Shown in pieces: positions 42,684 through 56,699 of a stretch of 64,000 bases of DNA (within the stretch, counting starts at the first letter, position 1; each line of letters starts with the position of its first letter). This DNA comes from Mesoterricola sediminis (GTDB lineage Bacteria; Acidobacteriota; Holophagae; Holophagales; Holophagaceae). The stretch spans positions 3,517,001-3,581,000 of the forward strand of contig NZ_AP027081.1 of the NCBI RefSeq assembly GCF_030295425.1. The letters are read 5' to 3'. Made by a program: the position numbers and the translations under genes. The notes under the pieces are model-generated. The model searched no databases. It saw only the letters and a program-made list of their open reading frames with translations, and was not told where the DNA came from.

Positions 42684-43104
42684 ACCCCTCGAACCGACCG
42701 TCCCGCCGGAGCCCCTCCCACCGGATCCTCCGCAGGACGGGAGCGCCCCCCTGCTGCCGGCCCACCCCAAAGCATGCACGGCCCTCGGCAGGCTGGATGG
42801 CGTCGCGGCCCTGCTTCCGGATCCAGGATGCGAGCGCCAACGGAGAACCCAGGGTCGGTGTCGTCGTGAATGGCCTGCGATTTTGCGGGAACACCGGCCA
42901 CCAAGCCAGGAAGCAGGATGCCATCAGGGTGGCCGATTCCTACGCCAAGGTTGGTAGGGAGATGGCCATGGGGGGGCCTTGCCACCCGTGCAGGGTGGCA
43001 CGCCGTCCTTCCCCTGGTGAATCTGACCCAAAGGGCCTATTTTGATTTTGGGGGAAAATGAAAATTTGTTTCTCCCCTGTTTCGATTCCTGGAATAAGCC
43101 CCCT
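42684..43104 (+). pseudogene. Intergenic stretch holding a decayed copy of the array's small ORF
   Basis: At 42866-42964 the sequence matches, with drift, the 77-codon small ORF of the 52-55 kb array: it still reads VNGLRFCGNTGHQARKQ then DAIRVADSYAKVGREMA in one frame, against VNGRRFCGNTGHRDKKQ and AAIWVADFKAEVRKERA in the array. The start and the last third are missing. Nothing else is recognised here. Confidence 0.65.
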
Positions 43105-44244
43105 ATGCGACGAGAACCAACCGGTTCCTACCTTGTCCAAACCACGCTCGGGGAGGAGGTCCACGCCTTCCTTCCGAAGCCCCTTCCGCCGGATCCTCCC
43201 ATCCAGTGGAGTACCTCACTTCTGCAGAGGCATCAGAGGGCCTCAGCCGCCCTTGGCCGCCTTGACGGAGTGACCGCCTTTCTCCCGCATCCCGCAATGT
43301 TCCTATACAGCTACGTCCGGAAGGAAGCGGTTCTTTCCTCTCAGATCGAAGGCACCCAGTCGTCACTTTCCGACCTCCTTGCCTACGAGAACCTCCAGGC
43401 CCCTGGCGTCCCGATGGAAGACGTGGTCGAGGTCTCAAATTACGTGGCCGCCCTTGACCATGGCCTGGGCAGGCTCCGGGGAGGTTTTCCGCTGTGCCTT
43501 CGGCTTGTGCGGGAGATCCACGAGGTGCTTCTTTCAAAGGGGCGTGGTAGCGGGAAACATCCAGGTGAGTTCAGGCGCTCCCAGAATTGGATCGGAGGTA
43601 GTCGGCCGGGAAACGCAACGTTCGTGCCCCCTCCACATGAATGCCTTCCCGATTGCCTTTCGTCGTGGGAATCCTTTCTGCACTCGGACATGGACCCACT
43701 GACAAAGGCCGCATTGGCTCATCTTCAGTTTGAAACACTTCATCCCTTTTTGGACGGCAACGGACGCGTTGGCCGCCTCCTGGTATCCCTCATCCTTTGC
43801 CAGGAGGGGGTCCTGCGTGAGCCCATGCTTTATCTCAGCCTTTTCCTGAAGAGCCACCGCACCCGTTACTACGCACTGCTCCAGGAGGTGAGGGAAGACG
43901 GCGATTGGGAAGCCTGGCTGGACTTCATGTTCCAGGGGATGGCCGAAACCGCCCAGGGTGCAGTGACCGTGGCGAAACGGCTGCTTGACCTGTTTGAAAA
44001 GGACATCAGGACGATTCAATCGAAGGGAATGGCGGCCTCAGCCTTCCAAGTCCACCGTTACTTGCAAGAGCACCCTATCGCCTCTTCTCCCACCATCTGC
44101 CGGGAAGAGAACCTGGCTCCATCTACCGTGAACAACGCCTTGGCCAACCTCGAAAGGGCCGGCCTCATCCGCGAAATCACGGGAAGCGCCAGAAATCGAC
44201 TTTATGCCTACAGTGAGGTTCTGGATCTCCTGAACGAGGGATAG
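43105..44244 (+). CDS. Fic-family protein (AMP-transferase type, class II)
   Basis: A 379-residue protein. The core motif HPFLDGNGRVGR (HPFxDGNGRxxR, about residues 212-223) carries the catalytic His and is intact. An N-terminal inhibitory helix SSQIEG (about 76-81, consensus (S/T)xxxE(G/N)) marks it as class II with built-in autoinhibition. A winged-helix domain closes the protein (TVNNALANLERAGLIREITG). Such proteins usually AMPylate target proteins; toxin or regulatory roles occur. Lower GC than its left neighbours. TTG 43042 in frame is possible; ATG 43105 is preferred. Confidence 0.9.
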   Translation: MRREPTGSYLVQTTLGEEVHAFLPKPLPPDPPIQWSTSLLQRHQRASAALGRLDGVTAFLPHPAMFLYSYVRKEAVLSSQIEGTQSSLSDLLAYENLQAPGVPMEDVVEVSNYVAALDHGLGRLRGGFPLCLRLVREIHEVLLSKGRGSGKHPGEFRRSQNWIGGSRPGNATFVPPPHECLPDCLSSWESFLHSDMDPLTKAALAHLQFETLHPFLDGNGRVGRLLVSLILCQEGVLREPMLYLSLFLKSHRTRYYALLQEVREDGDWEAWLDFMFQGMAETAQGAVTVAKRLLDLFEKDIRTIQSKGMAASAFQVHRYLQEHPIASSPTICREENLAPSTVNNALANLERAGLIREITGSARNRLYAYSEVLDLLNEG

Positions 44245-44381
44245 AGCGTTCCGCATCGGTACACCGGAATCCGGGGGGTCGCCCCCTACTATCTTCCTGA
44301 GTCCGTGCAATCCGCCTGCGGCGAATCTCCGGAAACCCAATATCCATGAGGGTTTGGTACCATTGTAGTCGGGTGATCGGT

Positions 44382-44398
44382 GTCACCCAACGGGTGAC
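44382..44398. promoter_or_regulatory. Palindrome before IS1380-type transposase
   Basis: GTCACCC-AAC-GGGTGAC, 4 bp before the transposase ATG. A related palindrome CACCC-AAT-GGGTG is at 49983-49995, before the second IS1380-type gene. A subterminal binding site or a translational hairpin is possible. Confidence 0.5.
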
Positions 44399-44402
44399 CC
44401 GA

Positions 44403-45740
44403 ATGGAAATCAAGTTCATCAAGTCTGAGAAGATGGAACTGGTTGGAGGCGCAGGGCTTGCCTTGGTGGGCCAGATCCTGAACCGGTGCACGACCCTGGG
44501 CAAGGATCTCACCCGGCAGTTCCCCAAGCGGACCGGAGCCGTGCCGACCGGCGACGTGGCTTTGGCCTACGTCGCAACCCTCTGCACGGGGAAGAGCGAC
44601 TTCGAGGCCGTCTCGACCCTGGAGGACAAGGTGCTCGCGCCGGAGAGCCTGGGCCTTCAGGCCTTCCCCTCGCCGGTCACCGTCCGGCAGCGGCTGGACG
44701 AAGGGGCGGACCTCTACATGCCCTACGTACAGAAAGCCACCGGCGACCTCCTACGCAAGAGCAAGGCCCCGATCACCGCCCTCTCCACCGGGCACGTGGC
44801 CCTGGACGTCGATGTCACCCCGCTGGACAACTCCAACTCCAAGAAGGAAGGCATCGGCTGGACCTACAAGCAATTCGAGGGCTACGCGCCCATCGCCGCC
44901 TACCTGGGCGAGGAGGGCTGGGCCCTGGGCTTCGAATTGCGGGAGGGGACCCAACACTCGCAGAAGGAGACCCCCGCGTTCCTGGCGCGGGTGAGCGCCC
45001 TCGCCAAGAAACTGGTGAGCGGGAGGAGGATCCTGCTCCGCATGGATTCCGGCAACGACGCATTGGAGAACTACGCCCTGGCTGCCGAGGAAGGCATCGA
45101 CTACCTGGTCAAGCACAACTGGCGCACGGAGAACCTGGAGGTCTGGGCGGACAAGGCCGCGGGCATGCCGGAATCCGCCTGGAGCCACCCCCGGGAAGGG
45201 AAGCGGGTGGTGCGCTTCTCGGAGCGGATGGAACGAACGGTGAAGTTCAAAGGCGAGGAAAGGGTTGTTCGCTACCGGATGGTGGTGGAGGTTTCCGAGC
45301 GCACCACGGACGCCAAGGGCAACGCCCTGCTGCTCCCCCTGGTGGGCGTGGATGCCTGGATCACCAGCCTGGACCTGCCGGAAGCCGACGTGGTCGCCAT
45401 CTACCGGGACCACGGCACGAGCGAGCAGTTCCATTCCGAGATGAAGGGAGAACTCGATCTGGAGCGGCTTCCCAGCGGCAAGTTCATGACCAACGCCCTC
45501 ATCCTGGAGATGGGCGTCCTGGCCTACAACGTCCTGCGCCTCATGGGGCAGATCGGCCTGAAGGGGTACAAGCAGCGGCACGAGAGCAAGCGTCGCCGCA
45601 TCCGGACGGTGATCCAGGAACTGCTGTGCGTGGCGGCACGGGTCGTTCACCACGCGGGCCAGGTGGCCTACAAGTTCGGGCGGACCTGTCTGGCCTTCGA
45701 CCGGCTGGTCCTGCTCCGAGCCCATTTCTGCGGCGCCTGA
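44403..45740 (+). mobile_element. IS1380-family transposase, apparently intact
   Basis: A 445-residue DDE transposase. ALDVDVTPLDNSN (first Asp), ILLRMDSGND (second Asp), and GTSEQFHSEMKGELDLE (Glu) are in the order expected for IS1380. The N-terminal TGDVALAYVATLCTGKSDFE also fits. The frame is uninterrupted. I could not identify terminal inverted repeats with confidence, so only the gene is delimited. It forms the left border of the AT-rich cargo block. Confidence 0.88.
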
Positions 45741-50014: not shown

Positions 50015-51346
50015 GTGTTCGAGATCGAGGGAATGAAGGTGGAGTTTGGCCGTCCGGTTTCTACAGATGGCGGCGTGGTGTTTGTGGCCCGGCGGATCCG
50101 CAGGTCCGCATGGTTCCGTGCCCTCCTTGCCGAACTGCTGCCGGTCATCTGTGCGATGAACGGTGATCGATATGGGTTCGCCGCGGAGCCCAAGCTGAAA
50201 CGGAAATTGGTCGCCCTGATCGCCGGCATGGCGATGGGCTACCGCTCCGGCAAGGAGATCGCTGATGTCATCGGGGCCGACCGCCTTTGGCGGGAAATGC
50301 TCGGCGGGCGGGTCCCCTAGATCGATCTGTCCCGGCTCATTCAGGTCCTCTCCGGCCGCGGGCAAACGGCTCTGGACAAGGCCCTGGCAGGGTCGGCCGC
50401 CGATGGAGGGCGTCCCCTGCACTTGGATGGCGACTCCAGCCTCCTCGAATTGCACGGCAAGCAGGAGGGCGGAGCCTGGAATGGGCATTACAAGGACTTC
50501 GGCTATCACGCCGGATGACTCCTTGATCGCTCCGGCAGGCTCGCGGCCTTGTGGCTGATGGAGGGAAATGCCCATACAGCCCGGGGGCAGGCCGAGCGCC
50601 TGACCTGGATGCTGGAGGCCGGCCTTCCGGTGGCCTCCTACCGGGGCGACGCCGGAATGCTCAGCGCCCGGCTCATGAAGCTCCTGAACCAAGGCGGAGT
50701 GGACTTCACCATGCGCCTGCACGCCAATTCGAAGCTCGACGAACTGGCCCAGGATCTTTGTCCCGCCATTCCAAAGATGGGTGGGGCGGTGGCCTTCTCC
50801 GAGTTCCCATACCGGGCTGGAACCTGGGATCGGGAGCGGCGCGTGGTGGTCAAGTTCCAGGTGCCCCAGGACGAGAACGGTGCGCCTGCCCTGTTCACGG
50901 AGAACTTCTACTTCGTGACAACCCGCGAGGACGCTCCTGCGGAGGTCGTGGAGCATTACCTGGCCAGGGGCGAGGCGGAGCGCAGGATCGGAGAGTTCAA
51001 GGCGGCCTTCGAGCCCACCTTCCGGCACGCGGAGATGGACAAGAACCAGGTGTGGGCCAGCCTCCTGGCCCTGGCCCACAATGTCCTGGTGGACCTCCGG
51101 GAGCGCGTGAAGGGCGAACCGGAACTGAAGCCCAGGCCCAGCCTCAAGCCTCTCCGAGGCGGTTCGGGCTGGTCCGTCCTCGCCACCACCTACCAGTCCT
51201 CGCCGGTCCTGCCGAGCTTGGCCCGGTTCCGGGCCTTCACCCTCAAGCTGGCGAATGCCATCATGTGCCACGCTCGGCTACAGGTCCTGCGCCTCCATCC
51301 TCAGCATCTGAAGCCGGCCTGGCCATTCGCGCTCGCCCCGGCCTAA
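50015..51346 (+). pseudogene. IS1380-family transposase with two in-frame stops
   Basis: One frame from GTG 50015 to 51346 encodes an IS1380-type transposase of ~443 codons, broken by TAG at 50318 and TGA at 50516. The pieces read GYRSGKEIADVIGADRLWRE, LHLDGDSSLLELHGKQEG (first Asp), ASYRGDAGMLSARLMKLLNQ and RGEAERRIGEFKAAFEP (Glu). Both stops are one transition from sense codons (CAG to TAG, CGA to TGA). It differs clearly from the intact copy at 44403, so it is another IS. It forms the right border of the AT-rich cargo. Confidence 0.85.
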
Positions 51347-51636: not shown

Positions 51637-52560
51637 GTGCGCATCGCCAACCCCATCTATGACGTGGTGTTCAAGTACCTCCTCGACGACGAGAAGGTGG
51701 CCCGGCTCGTGCTGTCCGCCCTCCTGGGCAAGGAGGTGCTCGAGCTGCAGTTCCGGCCCACGGAAGTGCACCACGAGGCGGCCCGCCCCGACGCCACCCA
51801 GCTCCTGGTCTTGCGCATGGACTTTGCCGCCACGGTGCGCATGGAGGACGGCAGCCGCAAGCTGGTCCTGATCGAGATCCAGAAGGCCCGCAGCGCCTGG
51901 GACGTGCAGAGGTTCCGGCGCTACCTGGGCTCCAACTACGCCAGCCCGGAGAACGTCTACCTGGATCCGGAAGGCAAGAAGCACGCGTTGCCCATCGTGA
52001 CCATCTACTTCCTGGGCGAAGGCCTGGAGTGCGTCGACGTGCCGGTGCTGAAGATCAACCGGCACTACCTGGACGTGGCCACGGGCGAGGAGGTGAAGAT
52101 CACCGATCCCTTCGTGGAGGCGCTCACGCACGACGCCATCGTGGTCCAGGTCAACCGCCTGAAGAACCGCCGGCGCACCGAGCTTGAGCGGCTGCTGGAA
52201 GTGTTCGACCAGGGCCTGGCGTCCCGGACGGACCCGCACCTGCTGGACATCCTGGAGGAAAACTTCCCGGAGCGCCATCGCGAGGTGCTTCGTCGCCTCC
52301 TGCGCGCCAGCGCCGAACAGGAGGTGCGCGAGAAGATGGACGTGGAGGACGACATGCTGGCCGCGATCCGGGACCAGGCCCGGGAATCCTCGGACCTGCG
52401 CCAGGTCGTGGCCGACCAGGCACAAGCCTTGGCCGAGAAGGACCAGGCCTTGGCCGAGAAGGACCAGGCCCTGGCCGACCAGTCTCAGGCTCTGACTGAG
52501 AAGGACCGCCTAATCGCCGAACTGAAGCAACGCATAGGGCAACCGCCTCCTGGGCGGTAG
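51637..52560 (+). CDS. Rpn family recombination-promoting nuclease, copy 1
   Basis: A 307-residue PD-(D/E)xK nuclease (PDDEXK-type transposase-like) starting at GTG 51637. NPIYDVVFKYLLDDEK opens the fold; D62 and E80-x-Q82-K83 (LIEIQKA) form the active site, followed by YASPENVY. Residues ~175-245 are alpha-helical. The C-terminus is a coiled coil of seven-residue units (EKDQALA twice, then DQSQALT) ending IGQPPPGR. Family members act as DNA nucleases with toxic, anti-phage and recombination effects. An internal start at 52354 could yield the coiled coil alone. Confidence 0.92.
   Translation: MRIANPIYDVVFKYLLDDEKVARLVLSALLGKEVLELQFRPTEVHHEAARPDATQLLVLRMDFAATVRMEDGSRKLVLIEIQKARSAWDVQRFRRYLGSNYASPENVYLDPEGKKHALPIVTIYFLGEGLECVDVPVLKINRHYLDVATGEEVKITDPFVEALTHDAIVVQVNRLKNRRRTELERLLEVFDQGLASRTDPHLLDILEENFPERHREVLRRLLRASAEQEVREKMDVEDDMLAAIRDQARESSDLRQVVADQAQALAEKDQALAEKDQALADQSQALTEKDRLIAELKQRIGQPPPGR
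52354..52560 (+). CDS. Possible intragenic short product (RpnS-like) of copy 1
   Basis: GGAGG with 5-bp spacing precedes an in-frame ATG at 52354; the product would be 68 residues (MLAAIRDQARESSDLRQVV plus the heptads). In known Rpn systems a separately translated C-terminal protein dimerises and blocks the full-length toxin. Translation here is inferred from the site only. The equivalent ATGs in copies 2-4 are at 53704 (47 residues), 54991 (75) and 56362 (61). Confidence 0.5.
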   Translation: MLAAIRDQARESSDLRQVVADQAQALAEKDQALAEKDQALADQSQALTEKDRLIAELKQRIGQPPPGR

Positions 52561-52638
52561 TCCCCCATGTCCTGAAGCCAGGTGGGACGCGGGCTCTCGA
52601 AGATGGACTTCCCGTACGCGTGACTCCCGCGTGATTTA

Positions 52639-52872
52639 ATGATTTCTTTTGATTTACGAAGGATTTCAAGGAGGCCCAATCGGATCGATCAAGGTGGGTT
52701 CATCCACTACGATGGAATGGTGAATGGCAGGCGATTTTGCGGAAACACCGGCCATCGGGACAAGAAGCAGGCCGCCATCTGGGTGGCCGACTTCAAGGCC
52801 GAGGTGCGAAAGGAGAGGGCCAACGAGGCCATCGCCAGGAAGGTTTTCCTGGAGGCGGAGGCTGCCAAGTAG
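52639..52872 (+). CDS. Array small ORF, unit 1
   Basis: Seventy-seven codons from ATG 52639: a basic start (MISFDLRRISRRPNRIDQGG), then VNGRRFCGNTGHRDKKQ and a helical charged end (VRKERANEAIARKVFLEAEA). No Shine-Dalgarno precedes ATG 52639; an internal ATG at 52721 before VNGRRF is also possible. It may instead be non-coding spacer DNA that is conserved because the units were recently copied. No family recognised. Confidence 0.4.
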   Translation: MISFDLRRISRRPNRIDQGGFIHYDGMVNGRRFCGNTGHRDKKQAAIWVADFKAEVRKERANEAIARKVFLEAEAAK

Positions 52873-52986
52873 CCTGCAAGGTCCGGTTCGCCGCTTCCGA
52901 GGCGTGACGAGAGCCAAGAGCATGAGTCGTTCCGTGGCTTCTCCTCGCGGAGGGTCGCTAGACTTCCCCCGGGAGGTCCCGGGCCG

Positions 52987-53847
52987 GTGCGCATCGCCAA
53001 CCCCATCTATGACGTGGTGTTCAAGTACCTCCTCGACGACGAGAAGGTGGCCCGGCTCGTGCTTTCCGCCCTCCTGGGCAAGGAGGTGCTCGAATTGCAG
53101 TTCCGGCCCACGGAAGTGCACCACGAGGCGGCCCGGCCCGACGCCACCCAGCTCCTGGTCCTGCGCATGGACTTCGCCGCCACCGTGCGCATGGAGGACG
53201 GCAGCCGCAAGCTGGTCCTGATCGAGATCCAGAAGGCCCGCAGCGCCTGGGATGTGCAGCGGTTCCGGCGCTACCTGGGCAACAACTACGCCAGCCCGGA
53301 GAACGTCTACGTGGATCAGGAAGGCAAGAAGCACGCGTTGCCCATCGTGACCATCTACTTCCTGGGCGAAGGCCTGGAGTGCGTCGACGTGCCGGTGCTG
53401 AAGATCAACCGGCACTACCTGGACGTGGCCACGGGCGAGGAGGTGAAGATCACCGATCCCTTCGTGGAGGCGCTCACGCACGACGCCATCGTGGTCCAGG
53501 TCAACCGCCTGAAGAACCGCCGGCGCACCGAGCTTGAGCGGCTGCTGGAAGTGTTCGACCAGGGCCTGGCGTCCCGGACGGACCCGCACCTGCTGGACAT
53601 CCTGGAGGAAAACTTCCCGGAGCGCCATCGCGAGGTGCTTCGTCGCCTCCTGCGCGCCAGCGCCGAACAGGAGGTGCGCGAGAAGATGGACGTGGAGGAC
53701 GACATGCTGGCCGCGATCCGGGACCAGGCCCGGGAGTCCTCTGACCTGCGCCAGGTCGTGGCCGACCAGGCTCAGGCTCTGGCTGAGAAAGACCGCCTAA
53801 TCGCCGAACTGAAGCAACGCATAGGGCAACTGCCTCCTGGGCGGTAG
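52987..53847 (+). CDS. Rpn family nuclease, copy 2 (shortest coiled coil)
   Basis: A 286-residue version, identical to copy 1 in the active-site region (D62, E80-x-Q82-K83). It differs at a few residues (GNNYAS, YVDQEG). The C-terminal coiled coil lacks three heptads: QAQALAEKD runs straight into RLIAELKQRIG. The internal GGAGG/ATG at 53704 is kept. Confidence 0.92.
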   Translation: MRIANPIYDVVFKYLLDDEKVARLVLSALLGKEVLELQFRPTEVHHEAARPDATQLLVLRMDFAATVRMEDGSRKLVLIEIQKARSAWDVQRFRRYLGNNYASPENVYVDQEGKKHALPIVTIYFLGEGLECVDVPVLKINRHYLDVATGEEVKITDPFVEALTHDAIVVQVNRLKNRRRTELERLLEVFDQGLASRTDPHLLDILEENFPERHREVLRRLLRASAEQEVREKMDVEDDMLAAIRDQARESSDLRQVVADQAQALAEKDRLIAELKQRIGQLPPGR

Positions 53848-53925
53848 TCCCCCATGGCCCGAAGCGAGGTGGGACGCGGGCCTCCGAAGGTGGGCCCCTC
53901 GTACGCATGACTCCCGGGTGGCTTA

Positions 53926-54159
53926 ATGATTTCTTTCGATTTACGAAAGATTTCAAGGATGTCCAATCGGATCGATCAAGGCGGGTTCATCCACTACGAT
54001 GGGGTGGTGAATGGCAGGCGATTTTGCGGAAGCACCGGCCATCGGGACAAGAAGCAGGCCGCCATCTGGGTGGCCGACTTCAAGGTCGAGGTGCGAAGGG
54101 AGAGGGCCAACGAGGCCATCGCCAGGAAGGTTTTCCTGGAGGCGGAGGCTGCCAAGTAG
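53926..54159 (+). CDS. Array small ORF, unit 2
   Basis: Same 77-codon frame, no stops. It differs from unit 1 at several codons, mostly changing the amino acid (for example N to S in FCGSTGH, A to V in DFKVEVR). That pattern gives little support for strong protein-level selection. Confidence 0.4.
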   Translation: MISFDLRKISRMSNRIDQGGFIHYDGVVNGRRFCGSTGHRDKKQAAIWVADFKVEVRRERANEAIARKVFLEAEAAK

Positions 54160-54273
54160 CCTGCAAGGTCCGGTTCGCCGCTTCCGAGGCGTGACGAGAG
54201 CCAAGAGCATGAGTCGTTCCGTGGCTTCTCCTCGCGGAGGGTCGCTAGACTTCCCCCGGGAGGTCCCGGGCCG

Positions 54274-55218
54274 GTGCGCATCGCCAACCCCATCTATGAC
54301 GTGGTGTTCAAGTACCTCCTCGACGACGAGAAGGTGGCCCGGCTCGTGCTGTCCGCCCTCCTGGGCAAGGAGGTGCTCGAATTGCAGTTCCGGCCCACGG
54401 AAGTGCACCACGAGGCGGCCCGCCCCGACGCCACCCAGCTCCTGGTCCTGCGCATGGACTTCGCCGCCACCGTGCGCATGGAGGACGGGGCTCAGAAACT
54501 GGTCCTGATCGAGATCCAGAAGGCACGCAGCGCCTGGGACGTGCAGCGGTTCCGGCGCTACCTGGGCTCCAACTACGCCAGCCCGGAGAACGTCTACCTG
54601 GATCAGGAAGGCAAGAAGCACGCGTTGCCCATCGTGACCATCTACTTCCTGGGCGAAGGCCTGGAGTGCGTCGACGTGCCGGTGCTGAAGATCAACCGGC
54701 ACTACCTGGACGTGGCCACGGGCGAGGAGGTGAAGATCACCGATCCCTTCGTGGAGGCGCTCACGCACGACGCCATCGTGGTCCAGGTCAACCGCCTGAA
54801 GAACCGCCGGCGCACCGAGCTTGAGCGGCTGCTGGAAGTGTTCGACCAGGGCCTGGCGTCCCGGACGGACCCGCACCTGCTGGACATCCTGGAGGAAAAC
54901 TTCCCGGAGCGCCATCGCGAGGTGCTTCGTCGCCTCCTGCGCGCCAGCGCCGAACAGGAGGTGCGCGAGAAGATGGACGTGGAGGACGACATGCTGGCCG
55001 CGATCCGGGACCAGGCCCGGGAATCCTCGGACCTGCGCCAGGTCGTGGCCGACCAGGCACAAGCCTTGGCCGAGAAGGACCAGGCCTTGGCCGAGAAGGA
55101 CCAGGCCTTGGCCGAGAAGGACCAGGCCCTGGCCGACCAGTCTCAGGCTCTGACTGAGAAGGACCGCCTAATCGCCGAACTGAAGCAACGCATAGGGCAA
55201 CCGCCTCCTGGGCGGTAG
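54274..55218 (+). CDS. Rpn family nuclease, copy 3 (longest coiled coil)
   Basis: A 314-residue version: three EKDQALA units plus DQSQALT, four heptads more than copy 2. Residues 72-75 read GAQK rather than GSRK. Active-site residues intact. Internal ATG at 54991 with GGAGG. Confidence 0.92.
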   Translation: MRIANPIYDVVFKYLLDDEKVARLVLSALLGKEVLELQFRPTEVHHEAARPDATQLLVLRMDFAATVRMEDGAQKLVLIEIQKARSAWDVQRFRRYLGSNYASPENVYLDQEGKKHALPIVTIYFLGEGLECVDVPVLKINRHYLDVATGEEVKITDPFVEALTHDAIVVQVNRLKNRRRTELERLLEVFDQGLASRTDPHLLDILEENFPERHREVLRRLLRASAEQEVREKMDVEDDMLAAIRDQARESSDLRQVVADQAQALAEKDQALAEKDQALAEKDQALADQSQALTEKDRLIAELKQRIGQPPPGR

Positions 55219-55296
55219 TCCCCCATGTCCTGAAGCCAGGTGGGACGCGGGCTCTCGAAGATGGACTTCCCGTACGCGTGACTCCCACGTGATTTA

Positions 55297-55530
55297 ATGA
55301 TTTCTTTTGATTTACGAAGGATTTCAAGGACGTCCGATCGGATCGATCAAGGTGGCTTCATCCACTACGATGGGGTGGTGAATGGCAGGCGATTTTGCGG
55401 AAGCACCGGCCATCGGGACAAGAAGCAGGCCGCCATCTGGGTGGCCGACTTCAAGGCCGAGGTGCGAAGGGAGAGGGCCAACGAGGCCATCGCCAGGAAG
55501 GTTTTCCTGGAGGCGGAGGCTGCCAAGTAG
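55297..55530 (+). CDS. Array small ORF, unit 3
   Basis: Third copy of the 77-codon frame, closest to unit 1 in its first 20 codons (LRRISRTSDRIDQGG) and to unit 2 in FCGSTGH. The mosaic suggests exchange between units. Confidence 0.4.
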   Translation: MISFDLRRISRTSDRIDQGGFIHYDGVVNGRRFCGSTGHRDKKQAAIWVADFKAEVRRERANEAIARKVFLEAEAAK

Positions 55531-55644
55531 CCTGCAAGGTCCGGTTCGCCGCTTCCGAGGCGTGACGAGAGCCAAGAGCATGAGTCGTTCCGTGGCTTCT
55601 CCTCGCGGAGGGTCGCTAGACTTCCCCCGGGAGGTCCCGGGCCG

Positions 55645-56547
55645 GTGCGCATCGCCAACCCCATCTATGACGTGGTGTTCAAGTACCTCCTCGACGACGA
55701 GAAGGTGGCCCGGCTCGTGCTTTCCGCCCTCCTGGGCAAGGAGGTGCTCGAATTGCAGTTCCGGCCCACGGAAGTGCACCACGAGGCGGCCCGCCCCGAC
55801 GCCACCCAGCTCCTGGTCCTGCGCATGGACTTCGCCGCCACCGTGCGCATGGAGGACGGGGCTCAGAAACTGGTCCTGATCGAGATCCAGAAGGCCCGCA
55901 GCGCCTGGGACGTGCAGAGGTTCCGGCGCTACCTGGGCTCCAACTACGCCAGCCCGGAGAACGTCTACGTGGATCCGTTCGGCAAGAAGCAGGCGCTGCC
56001 CATCGTGACCATCTACTTCCTGGGCGAAGGCCTGGAGTGCGTCGACGTGCCGGTGCTGAAGATCAACCGGCACTACCTGGACGTGGCCACGGGCGAGGAG
56101 GTGAAGATCACCGATCCCTTCGTGGAGGCGCTCACGCACGACGCCATCGTGGTCCAGGTCAACCGCCTGAAGAACCGCCGGCGCACCGAGTTGGAGCGGC
56201 TGCTGGAAGTGTTCGACCAGGGCCTGGCGTCCCGGACGGACCCGCACCTGCTGGACATCCTGGAGGAAAACTTCCCGGAGCGCAATCGCGAGGTGCTTCG
56301 TCGCCTCCTGCGCGCCAGCGCCGAACAGGAGGTGCGCGAGAAGATGGACGTGGAGGACGACATGCTGGCCGCGATCCGGGACCAGGCCCGGGAATCCTCG
56401 GACCTGCGCCAGGTCGTGGCCGACCAGACACAAGCCTTGGCCGAGAAGGACCAGGCCCTGGCCGAGAAGGACCAGGCTCTGGCCGAGAAGGACGTCCTAA
56501 TCGCCGAACTGAAGCAACGCATAGGGCAACCGCCTCCTGAGCGGTAG
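55645..56547 (+). CDS. Rpn family nuclease, copy 4
   Basis: A 300-residue version with two heptads more than copy 2, no DQSQALT unit, and EKDVLIAELK in place of EKDRLIAELK. It has the most private changes (VDPFGKKQALP, NFPERNREV, ending QPPPER). Active site intact. Its last codons and the following 30 bp match tRNA-Arg(CCT). Internal ATG at 56362 with GGAGG. Confidence 0.92.
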   Translation: MRIANPIYDVVFKYLLDDEKVARLVLSALLGKEVLELQFRPTEVHHEAARPDATQLLVLRMDFAATVRMEDGAQKLVLIEIQKARSAWDVQRFRRYLGSNYASPENVYVDPFGKKQALPIVTIYFLGEGLECVDVPVLKINRHYLDVATGEEVKITDPFVEALTHDAIVVQVNRLKNRRRTELERLLEVFDQGLASRTDPHLLDILEENFPERNREVLRRLLRASAEQEVREKMDVEDDMLAAIRDQARESSDLRQVVADQTQALAEKDQALAEKDQALAEKDVLIAELKQRIGQPPPER

Positions 56548-56577
56548 GTCGGCAGTCCAATGGTGCCCGGGATGACC
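56521..56577 (+). repeat. Partial tRNA-Arg(CCT) copy at the end of rpn copy 4
   Basis: By eye about 50 of 57 positions match the intact tRNA-Arg from the D arm to the 3' end, including ACCGCCTCCT(G/A)AGCGGTAGG and GGCAGT(C/T)CAA. It overlaps the last nine codons of rpn. It is on the plus strand, whereas the intact tRNA is on the minus strand. The acceptor 5' half is missing, so it is not a functional tRNA. Confidence 0.85.
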
Positions 56578-56587
56578 CGCGATAAAT

Positions 56588-56614
56588 AAGCCCGACCCTT
56601 TGATGGGCGGGCTT
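56588..56614 (-). terminator. Terminator after tRNA-Arg
   Basis: AAGCCCG and CGGGCTT pair around a loop with additional CCC/GGG pairing. Read leftward from the tRNA it is followed by ATTTAT. It could also end rpn transcription. Confidence 0.6.
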
Positions 56615-56623
56615 CAAGGCGGC

Positions 56624-56699
56624 TGGTGGTCCCGGGCAGAATTGAACTGCCGACCTACCGCTTAGGAGGCGGTTGCTCTATCCCCTGAGCTACGGGACC
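56624..56699 (-). tRNA. tRNA-Arg (anticodon CCT)
   Basis: A 76-nt cloverleaf on the minus strand: acceptor GGTCCCG/CGGGACC, D arm AGCTCAGGGGATAGAGC, anticodon stem ACCGC/GCGGT with loop CTCCTAA (anticodon CCT), T arm GGCAGTTCAATTCTGCC, discriminator A and encoded CCA. Confidence 0.95.

Follow-up and report, generated by a model that had tools for sequence, protein, structure and literature searches.

The locus raises the question of how four tandem genes for an rpn-like protein have come to end inside pieces of a tRNA-Arg(CCT) gene, and why the longest of these pieces is inverted relative to the intact tRNA gene beside it. The window, the whole 64,000-nt stretch of DNA analysed here, belongs to a single-contig genome of 4.52 Mb. 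In it, four rpn-like genes lie head to tail (51637-56547) in repeat units of 1.3-1.4 kb, the inter-gene parts of which are 94-98% alike. The features of the locus are collected in Table 1.

Table 1. Coordinates in the window of the rpn-like array, the tRNA-Arg(CCT) pieces, the joins and the left side of the locus
Feature	Position	Strand	Remark
Integrase N-terminal remnant	42863..42968	+	Further remnant, upstream of SoFic gene
SoFic-type Fic gene	43042..44244	+	PADLOC E 4.5e-118
GAGGGATAGAGC, tRNA D-arm-like end of Fic gene including stop	44236..44247	+	Short
rpn-like gene copy 1	51637..52560	+	Last 27 nt are tRNA-Arg core
tRNA-Arg(CCT) core, nt 19-45	52534..52560	+	24/27; encodes IGQPPPGR-stop of copy 1
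Arm-type repeat pair GCGTGACTCCCGCGTGA	52618..52634	+	60 nt past core stem
Integrase N-terminal remnant (int')	52670..52874	+	Start codon lost
rpn-like gene copy 2	52987..53847	+	
tRNA-Arg core, copy 2 end	53821..53847	+	23/27
Arm repeat GCATGACTCCCGGGTGG	53905..53921	+	60 nt past core stem
Integrase N-terminal remnant	53959..54159	+	66-aa ORF with ATG; about 56 aa align to G003/G021 integrases, 65%
rpn-like gene copy 3	54274..55218	+	
tRNA-Arg core, copy 3 end	55192..55218	+	24/27
Arm repeat GCGTGACTCCCACGTGA	55276..55292	+	60 nt past core stem
Integrase N-terminal remnant	55328..55532	+	Start codon lost
rpn-like gene copy 4	55645..56547	+	
Displaced tRNA-Arg(CCT) 3' fragment (about nt 17-76)	56519..56580	+	Contains end of copy 4; orientation opposite to intact gene
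Palindrome AAGCCCGACCC-TTTGAT-GGGCGGGCTT, spacer between fragment and intact tRNA	56588..56614	.	Sequence reading
Intact tRNA-Arg(CCT), CCA encoded	56624..56699	-	Cloverleaf is the MFE fold

In a base-by-base comparison, 56519-56578 agreed with nt 17-76 of tRNA-Arg(CCT) at 51 of 60 positions, and 56521-56580 on the plus strand pair with 56622-56681 at 87% over 60 nt. The first-pass annotation of this DNA, which had put the match at about 50 of 57 positions, was accurate to one or two bases. The best unrelated 60-nt match to the tRNA on either strand of the whole window scored 34, a value common to two of the rpn cores and a tRNA-Pro gene, and 60 first-order shuffles gave a mean best score of 31.8 with a maximum of 34, so the similarity is better than that to unrelated sequence. 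The part of the tRNA that all four copies were said to share is a 27-nt core (tRNA nt 19-45), which scores 24, 23, 24, and 25 of 27 in copies 1-4, the background in the window being 17 and no shuffle exceeding 20. A chance likeness of the coding end to the tRNA might be expected from a GC-rich genome and a short C-terminal stretch, but the shuffles and the window background rule it out for practical purposes, and with the same end present in one congener and no further such match in the genus, its likelihood is negligible.

In copies 1-3, the likeness to the tRNA comprises the core alone, up to the stop codon, and only in copy 4 does it run on to the 3' end of the tRNA. The in-frame product of the core is IGQPPPGR-stop, with IGQLPPGR in copy 2 and IGQPPPER in copy 4. 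Since the intact tRNA gene read in the same frame gives IEQPPPKR-stop, the last eight codons and the stop codon of all four copies are, judged from the sequence, tRNA-encoded, as the annotation had claimed. Stop codons are present in all three frames of tRNA-Arg(CCT) between nt 20 and 45.

The sole other rpn gene of the genus with a tRNA-type end is the copy in the congener G001 at the same nagB/tRNA-Arg locus, which ends in AEQPPPGS-stop with 16 exact tRNA nucleotides. Its core reads GCAACC where the tRNA of G001 itself reads GCGACC, a one-base difference hinting that core and rpn gene travelled together, and the tree did not settle whether this gene is sister to the window copies. The fifth rpn gene of the window's own genome and the other rpn genes of the genus have different, LIADLxxRLSxx-like ends, and their 3' ends showed no notable tRNA match (best E 0.003, at least 380 nt past the gene). 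A search for the core pattern in six genomes of the genus hit nothing besides tRNA genes and the ends of the four window copies, and the reversed control gave zero matches. None of 80 wider homologues ends in PPG or PPP or otherwise shares this C-terminus. The fetched flanks of 3 of the 80 contain a tRNA; this low number, together with the tRNA-free ends in the genus, led us to reject the idea that rpn genes generally sit at tRNA genes. The 3' flank in L023 had a tRNA-like look on visual inspection, but yielded no tRNA match of relevance.

Retention in four of four copies could indicate that the tRNA-like end is functional, either as a 3' fold of the rpn mRNA, which the first-pass annotation had suggested, or as a selected antitoxin tail on RpnS-like short products. 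RNA folding did form the hairpin of the anticodon stem in copies 1-3, but the mRNA ends had no excess stability, with z of -0.44, -0.39, and -0.82 compared to -2.87 for the real tRNA, which leaves the suggested fold unsupported. The dN/dS between copies was 0.14-0.49 (rows G005a and G003b left out), and therefore the rpn-like genes were under constraint, but this value covers the first 230 codons and so describes the body of the protein, with the tail outside. The Met234 codon, from which a short product might start, is ATG in 33 of 33 sequences, but the Shine-Dalgarno sequence before it is not conserved outside the genus. A functional end is, on balance, highly improbable. In the window (56310-56350 and equivalents) and in G001, AGGAGG precedes the Met234 ATG by 11 nt, a possible internal start.

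"Rpn" serves here as a working name for the protein. None of 33 family members matched PF04754 (Rpn/Transposase_31), whereas E. coli RpnA, the positive control, matched at 1.6e-91, and hhalign against E. coli RpnA/B/C aligned the D..FK and E-Q motifs at a non-significant probability of 4%, leaving the identity assigned in the annotation unproven. Family profile scans produced coiled-coil noise and one weak Avs3b match only. The structure model (pLDDT 74.6) had no Foldseek match at E <= 0.001; among its weak structural matches PD-(D/E)XK nucleases recur, namely EndoMS (Z 5.0), McrC, Shedu, Cap4, and Avs3, and residues D62, E80, Q82, and K83 are invariant in the 33 sequences. The modelled fold suggests that the protein is probably a PD-(D/E)XK nuclease for phage defence. 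Its coiled-coil end contains 21-nt repeats (AEKDQAL; window 52401-52520, 55038-55165, and 56409-56493), and the repeat number varies between copies (286, 300, 307, and 314 aa), like the variable repeats of RpnS (PMC10327210).

Each join between rpn copies has the same order, with the core followed by an arm repeat 60 nt away and then by the first ~56 codons of an integrase. The pattern CCGC-N7-GCGG, 60 nt, GCGTGACTCC-GCGTGA was present in three of three joins, one of them with CTGC and GCATGA. The ORF fragment between the copies (MSNRIDQGGFIHYDGVVNGRRFCGSTGHRDKKQ...) is 65% identical over ~56 aa to the starts of tyrosine integrases in the relatives G003 and G021; the gene is full-length in G021 (PF00589, E 6.8e-14) and nearly complete in G003, and in the window island no functional integrase is left, only N-terminal remnants. 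In these relatives the core-to-arm spacing is 60 nt (G003) and 61 nt (G021), each before the intact 5' end of the homologous integrase gene, and the core is the reverse complement of the anticodon stem-loop of tRNA-Thr(TGT) in G003 and of tRNA-Arg(CCT) in G021. With the spacing the same as in the relatives, the window cores therefore hold the position of attachment cores. An anticodon loop serving as a 7-bp overlap is a known case (PMC8371274). The loop itself reads CTCCTGG, in tRNA sense, in the window joins versus TTAGGAG and TTACAAG, in antisense, in the relatives, and beside the integrase arm the former have the 5' half of the tRNA in sense, the latter its 3' half in antisense; the rest of the core reads alike either way because the stem is palindromic. 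The window joins therefore depart from canonical att products, and their formation would require an additional step. A literature search for an attP that overlaps the 3' end of a gene turned up no example.

The same tRNA is occupied in relatives as well. In G021, an 18.4-kb island extends from the intact tRNA gene (L081:19151-19076) to a direct fragment of nt 29-76 (L081:669-622), beside which the integrase lies at 785. G004 contains two intact tRNA-Arg(CCT) copies 21.7 kb apart, and G005 has an rpn remnant that is convergent with the tRNA at a distance of ~350 nt. The nagB-tRNA locus of G001, the counterpart of the one in the window, contains a SoFic-like Fic gene whose end lies inside an inverted fragment (nt 17-76, 92%); from there the repeat extends a further ~370 nt into the attachment arm, giving ~437 nt in all. 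By this record tRNA-Arg(CCT) is a hotspot. Two further arrangements were seen at such genes. In G001, a gene for a 599-aa ORC-CDC6-like ATPase is bracketed by the ~437-nt inverted repeats of tRNA-Arg and attachment arm (L080:10901-13735), and in G008, from another genus of the same family, a tRNA-Arg(CCT)-like 5' half (nt 1-39; L082:1975-2014) lies inverted 194 nt from an intact tRNA-Arg.

The left side of the window locus contains a Fic gene with Fic_N and Fic domains that resembles the SoFic defence protein in its PADLOC profile match over the length of the gene (5-359 of 361). It differs in having its stop in a tRNA D-arm-like stretch, which is clear in G001 and short in the window, where the match gains most of its meaning from the 60-nt match at the equivalent position in G001. 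Two DDE_Tnp_1_4-type transposase genes (44346-45740 and 50015-51346, the second frame-broken) separate the Fic gene from the rpn array; loss of the island's left end may be due to them. The first-pass annotation mentioned neither the SoFic gene nor the integrase remnants, and it also lacked the arm repeats and the congener with the same inverted arrangement.

Given the tRNA identity of the gene ends, the core at every join, the integrase remnants, the core-arm spacing, the occupation of the same tRNA in relatives, and the exceptional orientation of the fragment, we consider it probable that the locus is the rearranged wreck of one or more tyrosine-integrase islands at tRNA-Arg(CCT), with cargo ending in the displaced fragment, units multiplied, and a segment inverted. 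For one or more such islands, the single tRNA-Arg(CCT) gene would have been the attachment site, with crossover in the anticodon stem-loop, the 7-nt loop as overlap, and the stem CCGC/GCGG as core-binding arms. Integration would have left the island's far end with a displaced 3' fragment of the tRNA, and the adjoining cargo gene, rpn-like here and SoFic in the congener, would have read into the fragment for want of its own stop at the usual place, a stop presumably lost by recombination; translation would then end inside the fragment because of the tRNA's stops in every frame. The unit of core, arm, truncated integrase, and rpn gene would have been multiplied to four copies, the core being kept at each join and the rest of the tRNA 3' half after the last copy only, and the segment with the fragment would have been inverted so that it faces the intact tRNA across the terminator. 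The rpn-like genes would thus end in a tRNA piece because an integrase-borne island, now dead, had docked at the tRNA. Points against this reading are the lack of a functional integrase in the island, the non-canonical sense of the joins, and the lack of a second tRNA-Arg(CCT) fragment at the other island end. The first-pass annotation had proposed that an rpn unit was inserted at a tRNA-Arg gene and later inverted or copied. The tie to integration is strengthened by the integrase remnants, the spacing, the G021 island, and the restriction of the tRNA end to the rpn genes at this locus, and the fragment is indeed reoriented; the inversion and the route of copying are put forward here as inferences.

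The growth of the array is compatible with serial insertion at the core as well as with plain tandem duplication; duplication of whole units by unequal crossing-over explains it as well as site-specific events do, and published rpn arrays have been put down to tandem duplication (PMC10327210). A different origin would be non-autonomous cassettes, active perhaps recently, in which circles of core, arm, int', and rpn gene were moved in trans by full-length integrases and inserted serially into the displaced fragment, its 3' half being kept only after the last unit. Such cassettes would account for joins that are exact at the core and for the lack of an integrase remnant in front of copy 1 and the G001 rpn gene, which is what serial insertion behind copy 1 would predict, and complete integrases are present in congeners. 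However, every int' copy has the same truncation, and the copies match each other about as closely as the rpn genes do (94-98%), so that plain tandem duplication fits too (PMC10327210), and the loop has the non-canonical sense, all of which makes this origin unlikely. It is rather improbable that the locus represents a cassette system in which minimal units of core, arm, integrase N-terminal domain, and defence gene are mobilised in trans and stacked in a displaced tRNA fragment, each with a tRNA-borne stop, and in which a second, inverted tRNA core next to the intact gene would allow the segment to invert while the tRNA is preserved.

The fragment and the intact tRNA lie tail to tail, 41 nt apart, with a palindrome between them; it was not listed by a consensus terminator scan, and by its sequence is a probable tRNA terminator readable from both sides. 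This geometry would also be expected from a local inverted duplication, in which replication slippage across the palindrome copied the 3' part of the tRNA onto copy 4 without an integrase, and the inverted repeat of G001 is likewise long, at ~437 nt. Copies 1-3, however, are kilobases off and also end in the core, with arm repeats at 60 nt and an integrase remnant; the cargo-fused end is diverged (87%), a slippage copy need not be the gene's stop, and in G001 a 599-aa gene lies between the two inverted copies. We therefore regard slippage as rather improbable and prefer the decayed integrase islands.

Ten other displaced tRNA copies were found in the genome, from tRNA-Lys (2), Arg(CCG), Arg(TCT), Thr, Val, Glu (3), and Phe (nearly complete), and all ten are direct, Arg(CCT) alone being inverted; those of Lys, Arg, Val, and Glu begin at about nt 28-31. 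Because these ten are all direct, we infer that the inversion of the Arg(CCT) fragment was a later rearrangement. Inversion of a segment would explain both the abutment of the fragment's 3' end on the tRNA terminator and the absence of a direct fragment, and the genome holds no second tRNA-Arg(CCT) fragment marking the other island end. Inversion after integration can place a partial and a full tRNA on opposite strands (PMC9897764), and an archaeal integrase has been seen in vitro to invert DNA flanked by tRNA sites in opposite orientation (PMC5495485). Inspection of five direct fragments of the genome for cargo ending inside them showed no convincing same-sense gene end, which speaks against such endings as a common habit.

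The locus shares with Islander-type tRNA islands, which have a tyrosine integrase and an anticodon-centred site A (PMC4383910), an intact tRNA with a displaced 3' fragment, a putative crossover region in the anticodon loop, the integrase family, and tandem occupancy. It departs from them in the opposite orientation of the fragment, for which Islander rejects a case, in an integrase reduced to N-terminal pieces so that no integrase gene remains in the island, and in cargo genes that read into the fragment and end there. At the putative crossover subsite, the core CCGC-N7-GCGG and the 60-nt arm spacing are as in the relatives, but the loop has the reverse sense. A rearranged island of Thermococcus kodakarensis (PMC9897764) likewise combines integration with subsequent inversion and has a tRNA-Arg fragment and an intact tRNA on opposite strands, ~179 kb apart there versus 41 nt here, where a defence-like array ends in the fragment. 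The RpnL/RpnS arrays (PMC10327210) are similar in their tandem genes, conserved body, variable-number C-terminal repeats, and suspected PD-(D/E)XK-like fold. They differ in that the genes described here have no PF04754 match, have repeats of 7 aa (21 nt) instead of 4 aa, join at tRNA-derived integrase cores, and have an internal start that is only putative. The parts are already known, and what is new is the combination of tRNA-encoded C-termini, a core at each tandem join, and an inverted fragment.

It is well-founded to view the feature as an attachment-site remnant turned coding sequence in a rearranged, decayed defence island. Island finders drop tRNA fragments on the opposite strand and take their number as the false-positive rate (PMC4383910). 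In two species of the genus studied here, inverted fragments that truly derive from attachment sites lie next to defence genes, and the orientation filter therefore loses real islands. The case also shows a route from a tRNA attachment site to coding sequence: with stops in all three frames of nt 20-45, a gene that loses its own stop at an island edge gets a predictable short tail, and this offers a searchable signature for cargo fused to attachment sites, e.g., a C-terminus of QPPP(K/G)R-stop.

The same genome (G000:C1) is rich in anticodon-loop islands. Three direct 3' fragments (1141194, 1149526, and 1155599) follow the tRNA-Glu gene at 1138910 and two (1587732 and 1606641) follow the tRNA-Lys gene at 1578208, both apparent tandem islands, and there are single direct fragments for Arg(CCG), Arg(TCT), Val, and Thr in addition to the second, near-complete tRNA-Phe. 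Adjoining a tRNA-Pro(CGG) gene, a 196-bp unit is repeated 3.4 times at 99% (L238:331-988; G000:C1:3202330-3202987), each unit holding the last 27 nt of tRNA-Pro.
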